64,000 bases of DNA from Halopseudomonas laoshanensis (lineage in GTDB: Bacteria; Pseudomonadota; Gammaproteobacteria; Pseudomonadales; Pseudomonadaceae): positions 62,001-126,000 of the forward strand of contig NZ_QOVF01000004.1 in NCBI RefSeq assembly GCF_008365385.1. Direction: 5' to 3'. Positions 3,107 to 8,105 of this stretch are shown here, in pieces. Position 1 is the first letter of the stretch, and every line of letters begins with the position of its first letter. The position numbers and the translations under genes are program-made. Below the pieces are notes generated by a model, which searched no databases, was not told the DNA's origin, and saw only the letters and a program-made list of their open reading frames with translations.

Positions 3107-4378
3107 ATGGCGAGTGCGTTGGATTTCATGCTCGCCGCCCGGCGTAGCGAGATGCAGGGTCTACGCAGTCTGGAGCTGACCTGCGAACTGGTCGGCTGCA
3201 TCGGCCGTTTGATCCATGCACTGCAACGCGAGCGCGGCTTCTCGAATATTTATCTGGGCAGCCACGAGGAACGTTATCGCGCTGGCCTCGACGACCTGAC
3301 CGCAGATAGCCAGCGCATGCAGCAACAGGTAGTTGAGTGCTTCGCCCGTATTGATCTGGAGTCTGGCTGCGGGGCTGACAAGGCGCGGCTGTTCAACCAT
3401 ATCGCTTATGTACTGCACTATTTCGAGAGTTTTGCGGAATTACGCCGGCGGATTCGCTTGCAGCAGATTCTGCCCATGGACGCGACCCGCGCCTTTAGCC
3501 GGCCTATAAAGGGGCTGTTGAATGTGGTGTTCGAGGCAGCCGATACGGCCGTCGATCCGCAAATTACCCGCCATCTGGTCGCGCTATTCAACTTTATGCA
3601 GGGCAAGGAGCTGGCTGGGCAGGAGCGGGCGGCGGGGGTCGCCGGGTTCACGCTGGGCTATTTCGATCCTGCAGCGCAGGCGCATCTGGGCTTTCTGGAG
3701 GACGCGCAAAAACGCTGCTTCGAGATTTTCAATGACTATGCAGAGCCGGGTCTGCGCCGGCTATGGCGCAACTTATGCGCCGATCAGACGGTCGTCGAGC
3801 TGGGTAAGTTGAGGCAGATTGCTCTGCGCTCTTCGCAGGCTTCTCCCATTGCCCCTGCGCTGGCGGAGATCTGGTTTGAGCTGGCCAGCCAGCGCATTGA
3901 TGTGATGAAACAACTCGAAGATCAAATGACCGAGCACCTGCACAGCCAGTGTCAGCGCAAGATCCTTCAAGCCCAATCGGATCTGGATAACCATCGGGCG
4001 TTGTTGAAACGCCTGGCTAGCCTTGATGAAGACGCCAGCCTCCTGGCCACCCGGGTTTTCAACCTGCAGTCGACCGATCTGGATGCGTCAGACACTCTGG
4101 GAGGCCAGCTCAATCGCTCGGTGATGGATGTGTTGCATGCCCAGAACCTGCGTTTGCAGGCGTTAGGCGTCGAGCTAGAAGAAGCTCGCCGGTCGTTGAA
4201 CGAGCGCAAGCTGATTGATCGCGCCAAGGCGCTGTTGATGAAGCAGCACGGGCTCACCGAAGACGCGGCCTACCGCATGTTGCAGAACGCGGCCATGGAG
4301 CGCAGCCAGCGACTTGCTGATGTGGCGCAGCATCTGCTCAATTACGCCGAGCTGCTGCAGGGCAAAGCGAAGCTCTGA
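3107..4378 (+). CDS. nasR: Nitrate-responsive transcription antiterminator NasR (NIT + ANTAR)
   Basis: This is a 423-residue regulator that binds nitrate or nitrite through an all-helical NIT domain and then binds leader RNA to prevent termination before nitrate-assimilation genes. Residues about 28-270 fit the NIT domain, including an early RERGFS motif (residues 41-46) where an arginine contacts nitrate in the Klebsiella protein. Residues about 356-417 fit the ANTAR RNA-binding domain (LIDRAKALLMKQHGLTEDAAYRML region). A GGAGGG ribosome-binding site precedes the ATG. The next gene is the nitrate-binding protein of an ABC transporter, and the intervening leader has the expected hairpins, so the target is almost certainly the adjacent operon. 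Knowledge of the mechanism comes from Klebsiella NasR; its operation here is inferred. Confidence 0.93.
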   Translation: MASALDFMLAARRSEMQGLRSLELTCELVGCIGRLIHALQRERGFSNIYLGSHEERYRAGLDDLTADSQRMQQQVVECFARIDLESGCGADKARLFNHIAYVLHYFESFAELRRRIRLQQILPMDATRAFSRPIKGLLNVVFEAADTAVDPQITRHLVALFNFMQGKELAGQERAAGVAGFTLGYFDPAAQAHLGFLEDAQKRCFEIFNDYAEPGLRRLWRNLCADQTVVELGKLRQIALRSSQASPIAPALAEIWFELASQRIDVMKQLEDQMTEHLHSQCQRKILQAQSDLDNHRALLKRLASLDEDASLLATRVFNLQSTDLDASDTLGGQLNRSVMDVLHAQNLRLQALGVELEEARRSLNERKLIDRAKALLMKQHGLTEDAAYRMLQNAAMERSQRLADVAQHLLNYAELLQGKAKL

Positions 4379-4404
4379 TTGCAGGTGCTCCCCGCCACCG
4401 AAAC

Positions 4405-4419
4405 GCACCTGCTCAGCGC
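4405..4419 (+). promoter_or_regulatory. Candidate NtrC-binding site upstream of nrtA promoter
   Basis: The sequence GCAC-N7-GCGC differs by one base from the NtrC core GCAC-N7-GTGC. It is centred about 150 bases upstream of the predicted sigma-54 start, a typical enhancer distance. It overlaps the right arm of an 8-bp inverted repeat (GCAGGTGC 4381-4388, GCACCTGC 4405-4412) just after the nasR stop. Only one convincing site was found, so this is weak. Confidence 0.3.
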
Positions 4420-4429
4420 ATTCGCAACC

Positions 4430-4534: not shown

Positions 4535-4552
4535 TTGGCACGCATTCTGCTT
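4535..4552 (+). promoter_or_regulatory. Sigma-54 (-24/-12) promoter of the nrt operon
   Basis: TTGGCACG-N4-CTGCTT matches the RpoN consensus, with GG at 4537-4538 and GC at 4549-4550 separated by the required 10 bases. The predicted transcription start is about 4562. A sigma-54 promoter fits nitrogen-limitation control by NtrC, as known for the Klebsiella nasF operon. Confidence 0.8.
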
Positions 4553-4561
4553 TGTACCGGT

Positions 4562-4664
4562 AGGCCTGAGTTATCGACACTGGCCTCTACATATGAATAT
4601 GGGCAACGGCGTCCACCCGAGTTTCGAGCTATTTATCGAAACCTGCGTGTACGCCGTTTTTTTT
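4562..4664 (+). promoter_or_regulatory. NasR-responsive antitermination leader
   Basis: The leader starts at the predicted transcription start. A first hairpin is formed by AGGCC..AGT / ACT..GGCCT (4562-4586) with loop TATCGAC, which keeps an AxxG spacing. A second hairpin, TGGGC-AACGGC-GTCCA (4600-4615), has a hexaloop with A at position 1 and G at position 4, as required for ANTAR recognition. The second loop and its 3' flank are also the 5' arm of the terminator at 4605-4664, so the two structures exclude each other. Known biology: ANTAR proteins stabilise a two-hairpin element to block termination. The first hairpin is imperfect because of its 7-base loop and a 2-base bulge. Confidence 0.75.
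4605..4664 (+). terminator. Conditional intrinsic terminator before nrtA
   Basis: AACGGCGT (4605-4612) pairs with ACGCCGTT (4651-4658). An inner perfect stem GTTTCGA/TCGAAAC (4621-4627, 4636-4642) closes an 8-base loop, and eight Ts (4657-4664) follow. The nrtA ATG is 24 bases further on, so termination here would shut off the operon. Confidence 0.8.
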
Positions 4665-4688: not shown

Positions 4689-6023
4689 ATGGATGACAAC
4701 ACCACCAAGGACGCCAAAGGCGCTCCGAGCATGATCAAGCGTCGGGACTTTCTCAAGTACTCCATAGCGGCTGTCAGTGGTGCTGCGCTGTTCAGTTCCT
4801 TGCCGCCGGGCATGCGCACAGCGGCTTGGGCCGCCGGCAGCGATGGGGTGGAAACCACCAAGGCGAAATTGGGCTTTATTGCTCTGACCGACGCGGCGCC
4901 GCTGTTTGTAGCCGATGAAAAAGGCTTCTTCGCCAAGCACGGCATGACCGATGTAGAGGTGCTCAAGCAGTCTTCCTGGGGTACCACGCGAGACAATCTG
5001 GTGCTGGGCTCTGCGCGTAACGGCATCGACGGCGCACACATCCTCACGCCCATGCCGTATCTGATCACCACCGGGGCGATGACCGCGAACAATATCCCCA
5101 CGCCCATGTATATTCTCGCCCGCCTGAATCTGGGCGGGCAGTGCATATCGGTAGGGCAGGAATACGCAGACCTGAAGCTGGGCGTGGACAGCCAGCCATT
5201 CAAGGCGGCTCTGGAGGCTAAGAAGGCCACCGGCAAGCCGGTCAGCGCGGCAATGACCTTCCCCGGGGGAACCCATGATCTGTGGATGCGCTATTGGCTG
5301 GCTGCCGGCGGCATCGATCCGAACAGCGACATTTCCACCATCGTCGTGCCCCCAGCGCAGATGGTCGCCAACATGAAAGTTGGCAGCATGGATACCTTCT
5401 GCGTCTGCGAGCCGTGGAACGAGCAGTTGATCAACCAGAAGATCGGCTATACCGCGCTGACCACCAGCGAGTTGTGGCATAACCACCCGGAAAAGGCGCT
5501 GGGCATGCGCGCCGACTGGGTAGATGCCAACCCCAATGCCGCCCAGGCATTGCTCAAGGCGGTCATGGAAGCGCAGATGTTCTGCGAAGACCCGGCCAAC
5601 CGCGAAGAAGTGGCGAAGATCTGCTCCAAGCGCCGCTGGATCAATGCACCGTTTAACGACGTGGTTGAACGCATGAAGGGCAACTTCGACTACGGCAACG
5701 GCAAGGTGGTCGAGAACAGCGACAACCAGATGCGTTACTGGAAAGACAACGCCTCCTATCCGTACAAGAGCCATGACAAGTGGTTCATCACTGAAGATAT
5801 CCGCTGGGGTTATCTGCCCCAGGATCTGGACATGGACGCGCTGGTCGACAAGGTCAACCGCGAAGACCTCTGGCGCGCAGCCGCGACCAGTCTGGGGGTG
5901 CCGGCGGAGCAGATTCCCACCTCGACCTCGCGCGGCGTTGAAACCTTCTTCGACGGCAAGACCTTCGACCCGGAAAACCCCATGGCCTACCTCGATAGCC
6001 TGGCTATCAAGGCCATGAGCTGA
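4689..6023 (+). CDS. nrtA: Nitrate ABC transporter, substrate-binding protein
   Basis: This 444-residue periplasmic receptor captures nitrate (possibly nitrite) and delivers it to the NrtB/NrtD importer. The N terminus carries a twin-arginine signal (KRRDFLK at residues 17-23, then a hydrophobic stretch ending near AAWAA), so export by the Tat route is likely. The rest is a type II binding-protein fold related to NrtA/CmpA, with typical segments such as GFIALTDAAPLFVADEKGFF and FPGGTHDLWMRYWLAAGGI. It is the first gene of the operon behind the NasR leader; the Klebsiella counterpart is NasF. nrtB follows at once. No nitrate reductase gene is in the window. Confidence 0.95.
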   Translation: MDDNTTKDAKGAPSMIKRRDFLKYSIAAVSGAALFSSLPPGMRTAAWAAGSDGVETTKAKLGFIALTDAAPLFVADEKGFFAKHGMTDVEVLKQSSWGTTRDNLVLGSARNGIDGAHILTPMPYLITTGAMTANNIPTPMYILARLNLGGQCISVGQEYADLKLGVDSQPFKAALEAKKATGKPVSAAMTFPGGTHDLWMRYWLAAGGIDPNSDISTIVVPPAQMVANMKVGSMDTFCVCEPWNEQLINQKIGYTALTTSELWHNHPEKALGMRADWVDANPNAAQALLKAVMEAQMFCEDPANREEVAKICSKRRWINAPFNDVVERMKGNFDYGNGKVVENSDNQMRYWKDNASYPYKSHDKWFITEDIRWGYLPQDLDMDALVDKVNREDLWRAAATSLGVPAEQIPTSTSRGVETFFDGKTFDPENPMAYLDSLAIKAMS

Positions 6024-6055
6024 ACATGACGTCAGATTCAATGAGGGGCTTGCCC

Positions 6056-6931
6056 ATGAACGCCAATGTAAAGATTGATGCTGCTAATGCGCTGGAGCTA
6101 AAGCCAGACCCGCGGCATAACGTCGAATTGCCGGCCTGGCTGCAACATTACGGTGGGATTTTCATGCGCCAGGTGTTGCCACCGCTGATCTTCACTGCGG
6201 TTCTGCTGATCATCTGGCAGATGCTTTGTTCCATGGAAGGCAGCGCGTTGCCGCCGCCCACGCAGGTGGTGACGGATACCTGGGAGCTGATCATCGACCC
6301 GTTCTATGACAATGGCGGCAACGATGTGGGCATGGCCTGGCAGATTCTCGCCAGCCTCGAGCGGGTAGCCTACGGCTATATGCTCGCGGTGGTGGTGGGC
6401 ATCAGCCTGGGTGTGCTGGTCGGGCAGTCGACCTGGGCCATGCGCGGTCTGGATCCGGTGTTCCAGGTGCTGCGTACCGTGCCGCCGCTGGCCTGGCTGC
6501 CGTTGTCATTGGCGGGTTTTCAGGATAGTAACCCCTCGGCGATCTTCGTCATCTTCATTACCGCGATCTGGCCGATCATCATCAATACCTCGGTGGGCGT
6601 GCGCAATATTCCCGAGGACTATCGCAACGTTGCGCGGGTACTGCGGCTCAACGGTGCCGAGTACTTCGCCAAGATCATGCTGCCCGCCGCTGCGCCGTAC
6701 ATCTTCTCCGGCCTGCGTATCGGCGTCGGCCTGTCCTGGCTGGCGATCGTCGCCGCGGAGATGCTGATCGGCGGTGTGGGCATTGGTTTCTTCATCTGGG
6801 ATGCGTGGAACGCGTCACTGATCAGCGACATCATCCTGGCATTGATCTACGTCGGTGTGGTGGGTTTCTTCCTGGATCGCCTGGTGGCCTGGATTGGCCG
6901 TCTGGTAACCCGTGGCACCTCTGCCGGTTAA
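6056..6931 (+). CDS. nrtB: Nitrate ABC transporter, permease
   Basis: This 291-residue inner-membrane permease forms the nitrate channel, probably as a homodimer. About six transmembrane segments are visible. The region from YRNVARVLRLNGAEYF to GLRIGVG is the EAA-type loop that contacts the ATPase. I chose the ATG at 6056 because GAGGGG lies seven bases upstream; an in-frame ATG at 6026 would add ten residues but lacks a good ribosome-binding site. The gene lies between the binding protein and the ATPase in one operon. Confidence 0.94.
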   Translation: MNANVKIDAANALELKPDPRHNVELPAWLQHYGGIFMRQVLPPLIFTAVLLIIWQMLCSMEGSALPPPTQVVTDTWELIIDPFYDNGGNDVGMAWQILASLERVAYGYMLAVVVGISLGVLVGQSTWAMRGLDPVFQVLRTVPPLAWLPLSLAGFQDSNPSAIFVIFITAIWPIIINTSVGVRNIPEDYRNVARVLRLNGAEYFAKIMLPAAAPYIFSGLRIGVGLSWLAIVAAEMLIGGVGIGFFIWDAWNASLISDIILALIYVGVVGFFLDRLVAWIGRLVTRGTSAG

Positions 6932-6941
6932 GGAGCAGCAT

Positions 6942-7742
6942 ATGAGCCGTTATCTGAATATCGAGAAAGTCTCCAAGACCTTCACCGCCGGCAAGATGTC
7001 CACGGAGGTGCTGGTGGACATCAACCTGAGTGTGGCGCGGGGCGAATACATTTCCATCATCGGCCACTCCGGCTGCGGCAAGTCGACAGTGCTGAATATC
7101 GTGGCCGGCCTGATTGATTCCACCTCTGGCGGGGTGATTCTGGATGGCAAGGAAGTCAGCGATCCAGGCCCGGACCGCAGCATGGTGTTCCAGAACCATT
7201 CGCTGCTGCCCTGGCTGACGGTGTACCAGAACGTCGCTATCGCGGTGAACAAGGTCTGGCGCAGCAAGAATGCCAAGGAGAAGGACGAGTGGGTGCGGCA
7301 CAATCTGAACATGGTGCATATGAGTCACGCGCTGGACAAACTGCCGAGCGAAATCTCCGGCGGCATGAAGCAGCGTGTGGGTATCGCCCGGGCGTTGGCC
7401 ATGGAACCCAAGGTGCTGCTGCTGGATGAGCCCTTCGGCGCACTGGATGCATTGACCCGCGCACACCTGCAGGACGAAGTCATGCGCATTCAGAACGATC
7501 TGAAAAATACCGTGATCATGATCACGCATGATGTGGACGAGGCGGTGCTGTTGTCCGACCGCATCGTGATGATGACCAACGGGCCGTCGGCAACTATCGG
7601 CGAGATTCTGGATATTGATCTGCCGCGTCCGCGGGACCGGATCGCGCTGGCAGACGATCCAAAGTACAACCAGTATCGCCAGGCAGTGCTGCGCTTTTTG
7701 TATGAAAAACAGCGCAAGGTCGAGGCGGCTGTCTCGGCTTGA
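6942..7742 (+). CDS. nrtD: Nitrate ABC transporter, ATP-binding protein
   Basis: This 266-residue cytoplasmic ATPase energises nitrate uptake. Walker A (GHSGCGKST), the signature (SGGMKQR) and Walker B with the following D-loop (LLLDEPFGALD) are intact. The protein lacks the extra C-terminal binding-protein-like domain of cyanobacterial NrtC, so it corresponds to NrtD (NasD in Klebsiella). The start at 6942 is supported by AAGGAG at 6930-6935, which overlaps the nrtB stop; an upstream in-frame codon at 6912 lies inside nrtB. It ends the nitrate operon, and 36 bases later the promoter of the cobalamin operon begins. Confidence 0.94.
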   Translation: MSRYLNIEKVSKTFTAGKMSTEVLVDINLSVARGEYISIIGHSGCGKSTVLNIVAGLIDSTSGGVILDGKEVSDPGPDRSMVFQNHSLLPWLTVYQNVAIAVNKVWRSKNAKEKDEWVRHNLNMVHMSHALDKLPSEISGGMKQRVGIARALAMEPKVLLLDEPFGALDALTRAHLQDEVMRIQNDLKNTVIMITHDVDEAVLLSDRIVMMTNGPSATIGEILDIDLPRPRDRIALADDPKYNQYRQAVLRFLYEKQRKVEAAVSA

Positions 7743-7778: not shown

Positions 7779-7807
7779 TTGACGCTTTGTTACAAAATCA
7801 CTAATCT
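7779..7807 (+). promoter_or_regulatory. Sigma-70 promoter of the cobalamin operon
   Basis: A -35 box TTGACG (7779-7784), exactly 17 bases, then a -10 box TAATCT (7802-7807). Transcription would start near 7814, just before the riboswitch aptamer. Confidence 0.72.
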
Positions 7808-7814
7808 TCACCCC

Positions 7815-8034
7815 GCTTCAGGTGCCCGCTGATACCTCATCAGCGGGTGAAACTGGGAAGCCGGTGCGTCTGCCAGTTGCAGACAATTCCGGCGCTGCCC
7901 CCGCAACGGTAAGCGAGCGTCAGTCGATGTGAATCGGCTGGCACGTCACCGCCATACACCACTGTGCCAACGGCATGGGAAGGTGCGGTGACGGGATCAT
8001 TGTATCCGCTCGCAAGCCCGGAGACCGGCCTGAC
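7815..8034 (+). promoter_or_regulatory. Cobalamin (adenosylcobalamin) riboswitch
   Basis: The conserved elements of the aptamer occur in order: the 5' stem near CAGGTGCCCGCTGA with its partner TCAGCGGGTGAAACTGGGAA, then GCCGGTGC, the core GCTGCCCCCGCAACGGTAA (7894-7912 region), and finally the B12 box AGCCCGGAGACCGGCCTG (8015-8032). This RNA senses adenosylcobalamin and lowers expression of the downstream uptake and synthesis genes when the cofactor is plentiful. It precedes btuB, the usual arrangement. Confidence 0.96.
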
Positions 8035-8040
8035 GCATAT

Positions 8041-8105
8041 CACAGCAGAGCGGCGGGCTTTGCGGGTGTGCGGTCTCCTGCTGTGCCGGATCCGTCTGCC
8101 TTTTT
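8041..8105 (+). terminator. Probable expression platform of the cobalamin riboswitch
   Basis: Two alternative pairings share the same 5' bases. CACAGCAG (8041-8048) can pair with CTGCTGTG (8078-8085). GCAGAgCGG (8045-8053) can instead pair with CCGTCTGC (8092-8099), which is followed at once by CTTTTT. The second pairing looks like an intrinsic terminator. Two more perfect hairpins follow before the start codon (ACTGCTA/TAGCAGT, then GTCGTAC/GTACGAC). Which structure is the ligand-bound one cannot be decided by eye. Confidence 0.5.

Follow-up and report, generated by a model that had tools for sequence, protein, structure and literature searches.

The window, i.e. the whole 64,000-nt stretch of Halopseudomonas laoshanensis DNA that was analysed, contains on its plus strand the gene nasR (positions 3107-4378), followed by the genes of a nitrate ABC transporter: nrtA (4689-6023; substrate-binding protein, NMT1_2 8e-108), nrtB (6026-6931; permease) and nrtD (6912-7742; ATPase), the latter two scoring above the cut-offs of TIGR01183 and TIGR01184, respectively. 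The product of nasR is an antiterminator in which a NIT domain (nitrate/nitrite sensing; Pfam 8e-49) is fused to an RNA-binding ANTAR domain (2e-18), and it matches both parts of the Klebsiella NasR structure (PDB 4AKK, 2.7e-46). Its ANTAR residues are conserved among relatives, the nearest of which, H. pelagia, has a NasR with 91% identity. The genome from which the window was taken harbours one NasR and one NasT (NasS-NasT is present), and no further ANTAR proteins were found in it. Two other features flank these genes. Directly 3' of nasR lies an inverted repeat (GCAGGTGC...GCACCTGC, 4381-4412) without a T run, and downstream of nrtD a cobalamin riboswitch (7803-8047; Rfam RF00174, 99.6 bits) precedes a gene resembling those of TonB-dependent receptors and a cluster for cobalamin synthesis.

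Four elements follow each other on the plus strand between nasR and nrtA. The sequence TGGCACGCATTCTGCT (4536-4551) is a sigma-54 promoter of the GG-N10-GC type with one mismatch to TGGCACN5TTGCW, and relatives have such a site in the corresponding position ahead of P2 (see below). Its GG (4537-4538) and GC (4549-4550) are spaced by exactly 10 bases, which predicts a transcription start at 4562. At the 5' end of the predicted RNA, a hairpin with an AGGCC/GGCCT stem and a non-ANTAR loop (4562-4586) occupies the position of the first hairpin (P1) of an ANTAR leader. It is followed by the putative antiterminator hairpin P2 (4600-4615, -5.0 kcal/mol) with the sequence TGGGC[AACGGC]GTCCA, in which A1 and G4 of the hexaloop are present. 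Finally, an intrinsic terminator (4605-4664) has its 5' arm AACGGCGT at 4605-4612, its 3' arm ACGCCGTT at 4651-4658 and a T run at 4657-4664. Since the 5' arm consists of the hexaloop plus GT, P2 and the terminator exclude each other, and with -26.0 kcal/mol for 4605-4658 the terminator is so much more stable that P2 must be helped to win. The promoter with its spacing and start, the hexaloop hairpin with A1 and G4 and the overlap of the terminator arm with the hexaloop and its flank had been described in an earlier note on this DNA, and all three agree with the sequence.

Folding of the whole leader yielded -35.2 kcal/mol (z -2.8). A scan of both strands of the 64-kb window for the composite element (sigma-54 site, A1/G4 hexaloop and overlapping terminator) returned this single place, and 0.025 occurrences per strand were obtained with shuffled sequence. 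An Rfam search of the leader gave no ANTAR-type match, only chance hits.

For comparison, 80 NasR relatives were collected and the regions downstream of their genes were inspected for leader elements. The sigma-54 site, P2 and the terminator were found 3' of nasR in most Pseudomonadaceae and in the Azoarcus/Polaromonas/Variovorax group, usually with nrtA as the next gene, and in Pseudomonadaceae the order nasR, sigma-54 site, P2, terminator, nrtA is conserved. Among 36 non-redundant leaders, 98.6% of the terminator cells are paired, and three of the eight pairs show compensatory changes (C-G/A-U, G-C/A-U and C-G/U-A). Positions A1, A2 and G4 of the P2 loop are invariant in these leaders. That they never change suggests that the loop letters are held beyond pairing, as expected of an ANTAR target, and their fixation while the terminator covaries with the hexaloop strongly supports antitermination of the NasR type. 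The earlier note had proposed an alignment of nasR-nrtA intervals as a check, and conservation of the sigma-54 site, the second hexaloop and the covarying terminator speaks for its reading. Covariation of the P2 stem pairs, which it had also suggested looking for, did not exceed that in shuffles; this stem scarcely varies, and covariation is thus neither for nor against P2. In four nasR-adjacent nrtA leaders of another Pseudomonas genus group (L150, L151, L153 and L154), the P2 loop is GACGGC, with G at position 1 and G4 kept. Such loops fit the contacts in a crystal structure, which are made to G4 and not to A1 (PMC8934654).

The same note had seen in this interval a two-hairpin ANTAR leader, the first hairpin being possibly a variant element with a 7-base loop. 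The AGGCC...GGCCT stem at 4562-4586 is indeed present, but the 7-base loop with its inner AGT/ACT stem differs from the minimum-energy fold and is not shared by H. pelagia, where three bases are missing in this hairpin. When one fixed rule was used to score an A1/G4 hexaloop upstream of P2 in all leaders, it was detected in 3 of 43 Pseudomonadaceae nrtA leaders (chance expectation 3.35), as against 20 of the 22 leaders from other lineages (chance expectation 3.03). The window leader itself lacks the tandem of two A1/G4 hairpins, its P1 having no such loop. A two-hairpin ANTAR leader is therefore not what Pseudomonadaceae possess upstream of nrtA, and the notion of a conserved 7-base ANTAR loop had to be given up as well, since their P1 loops differ freely in length, between about 3 and more than 10 bases, and do not share letters. 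The P1 helix was nevertheless retained, with a mean z of -2.2 and a Stouffer z of -9.4 in 19 Pseudomonadaceae representatives, values which are optimistic because of relatedness. They were obtained with per-sequence shuffles, which replaced RNAalifold; the latter found no consensus on the P1 sequence alignment because MAFFT misregisters the arms. On the NasR tree, the single-hexaloop state corresponds to one change (support 100/99). At the level of sequence, the Pseudomonadaceae nrtA leader is thus a lineage-wide single-hexaloop variant, in which P1 survives as a helix and its A1/G4 hexaloop is lost.

Among distant gammaproteobacterial NasR genes in a class-level sample, six have a P2-like loop in their vicinity, and a second, upstream A1/G4 hexaloop exists in five of these leaders (L104-L107 and L109) and is absent in L110. 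Azoarcus taiwanensis (L080) combines nrtABD genes resembling those of Pseudomonas (76-81% identical) with a distant NasR and a leader that has two hexaloops, which suggests that the P1 state tracks the NasR lineage or the host and not the transporter genes. We also considered whether loss of the P1 hexaloop served to shield the leader from NasT, and found no support for this idea: the P1 state is equal in genomes with and without NasT.

A survey blind to P1 was conducted with a covariance model built from P2 and the terminator alone, which was run on 148 Pseudomonadaceae genomes. We inspected 29 new loci, some of them from species shared with the first set. Thirteen have nasR upstream and nrtA downstream, and none of these 13 has a convincing P1 hexaloop; one of them (L142) shows a weak, G-U-closed match. 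At least one P1 hexaloop was present at each of the remaining 16 loci. Two individual leaders deserve mention. L137 (G002:C119:18859-18913) is a P2-terminator leader 5' of a gene whose product looks like an exported, porin-like protein and may likewise belong to the nitrate regulon. L125 (G003:C17:391577-391637) has the loop GGGC[AAAGGC]GTCC without a P1 hexaloop and precedes what seems to be a further substrate-binding protein gene; it is a second leader, distant from the nasR-nrtA locus of its genome.

In the window genome, the same model recognized the nirB leader with 31 bits and, weakly, the nasA leader with 19.5 bits. The latter contains two canonical hexaloops, and the nirB leader (L103:2900-3100, minus strand; G000:C1 near 821427-821469) contains three: CTGTC[AACGGC]GACAG, CCTG[ACTGAT]CAGG and GGAC[AAAGGC]GTCC. 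Three A1/G4 hexaloops before the nirB terminator, two of them 5' of P2, were seen in most pseudomonads examined, which exceeds the described dual motif. The nirB leaders of P. cichorii and P. cuatrocienegasensis also have three hexaloops, and NasR is the sole ANTAR protein found in these species. NasR therefore probably reads their nirB leaders, and one regulator would serve both single- and triple-hexaloop leaders.

Based on these observations, we consider it probable that NasR controls nrtABD by antitermination through one ANTAR hexaloop, that of P2, in a transcript with a sigma-54 start and with P1 as a non-recognition helix. RNA polymerase with sigma-54, presumably activated by NtrC in nitrogen limitation, would initiate at around 4562. 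Unless NasR intervenes, the terminator (4605-4664) would fold and transcription would halt before nrtA. Upon binding of nitrate or nitrite to NasR, its ANTAR domain could grip the A1/G4 hexaloop of P2 (4600-4615). Because the stem and loop of P2 overlap the 5' arm of the terminator, we propose that stabilisation of P2 keeps the terminator from forming and allows nrtABD to be expressed. The Pseudomonadaceae nrtA leader would thus operate with a single ANTAR hexaloop, and the upstream helix at the RNA 5' end probably prevents mispairing of the 5' RNA or spaces P2.

Alternatively, the leader could still be a functional two-site ANTAR element, in which NasR reads the altered P1 loop by a new code and P1 still serves for recruitment. 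The conserved P1 helix, its nearly constant distance to P2 and the A1/G4-like sequence ATCGAC at the P1 apex in the window are in line with this possibility. However, the closing pair of ATCGAC is absent in H. pelagia, the loops of relatives have neither length nor letters in common, the ANTAR residues show no visible change, and in genomes with no other ANTAR protein the canonical nirB leaders are probably NasR targets too. We therefore regard a second recognition site in P1 as unlikely. Even less likely is that in genomes with both proteins NasT is the main reader of the nrtA leader, NasR acting elsewhere or merely helping. NasS-NasT is present in the window genome and the AACGNC loop type is common to NasT and NasR leaders, but genomes without NasT have the same leader adjoining nasR, the order nasR-leader-nrtA is conserved, and the nasA leaders at NasT loci carry two hexaloops in the Halopseudomonas group. 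That the terminator, lying just 3' of nasR, merely closes off the nasR transcript or attenuates constitutively, free of ANTAR control, is the least credible explanation, since its arm coincides exactly with an A1/G4 hexaloop in dozens of relatives, A1, A2 and G4 are fixed though elsewhere in the loop changes go along with those in the terminator, and a sigma-54 site is located between nasR and the terminator.

The preferred reading, NasR acting through P2 alone, is itself faced with objections. According to published work, EutV depends on both hexaloops in vivo (PMC3369931; PMC8934654), selection with NasR enriched tandem stem-loops as well (PMC7496416), and a co-evolved NasR might still bind a non-canonical P1. 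In addition, P2, which scarcely varies, gives no covariation signal above that of shuffles. Both rpoN and ntrC are present in the window genome, and no convincing NtrC box was detected upstream of the window sigma-54 site by consensus matching against shuffles: the best site (4404-4420, overlapping the inverted repeat 3' of nasR) has 9 of 12 letters and was equalled in 26% of the shuffles, and its H. pelagia counterpart has 10 of 12 letters (1% of the shuffles). NtrC may nonetheless control the nrtABD promoter. In sum, the interpretation of the leader as a NasR target with a sigma-54 promoter, put forward in the earlier note, is largely supported by the NIT-ANTAR match to 4AKK, the conserved sigma-54 site, P2 and terminator, and the presence of rpoN. 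Such a two-input scheme is not new but known in kind from Klebsiella, where combined Ntr/NasR control of nas genes was described (PMC5424462).

The NasR antitermination scheme itself is established in the literature (PMC3369931, PMC7496416, PMC5424462). Like the Klebsiella oxytoca NasR-nasF system, the locus described here combines a NIT-ANTAR protein with a hexaloop hairpin overlapping an intrinsic terminator (PMC7496416, PMC5424462). Nitrate-responsive antitermination and Ntr control of nas genes are features of the K. oxytoca system, and the parts of the nrtA leader, known from sequence here, match it. The target in Halopseudomonas is nrtABD adjoining nasR, while in K. oxytoca it is the nasF operon, whose leader has the consensus two-hairpin P1P2 motif. 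The EutV leaders of eut genes in Enterococcus faecalis also use an A1/G4 hexaloop hairpin that excludes a terminator (PMC3369931, PMC8934654), but both hexaloops are reported to be required there and the Halopseudomonas nrtA leader has one. In the current EutV model both are needed and the first serves as recruitment hairpin; one dimer binds one loop, each hairpin alone is bound with similar affinity, and the authors raised the question of how far single-hexaloop sites matter (PMC8934654). The NasR structure was described as a dimer (PMC5424462), and NasR may need no recruitment hairpin. The NasS-NasT leaders, including that of nasA in the window genome, resemble the nrtA leader in their sigma-54-like site, hexaloops and overlapping terminator. 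The difference lies in the hairpins: both hexaloops of the nasA leader are canonical, its P1 being strong and its P2 3 bp long, and the nrtA leader lacks a P1 hexaloop and has a P2 of 5 bp. More tentatively, we suggest that Pseudomonadaceae NasR antiterminates nrtA via a single hexaloop while nasA and nirB in the same cell have two and three, so that a dual hexaloop would not be obligatory for ANTAR antitermination, and the number of hexaloops could adjust the order in which, or the threshold at which, nitrate induces these genes. Leaders that have lost the P1 loop but retain its helix and the loop overlapping the terminator occur in the same genomes as canonical ones; these natural variants allow the need for a dual hexaloop to be tested, and the missing P1 hexaloop is what sets the nrtA leader apart from the known Klebsiella scheme.
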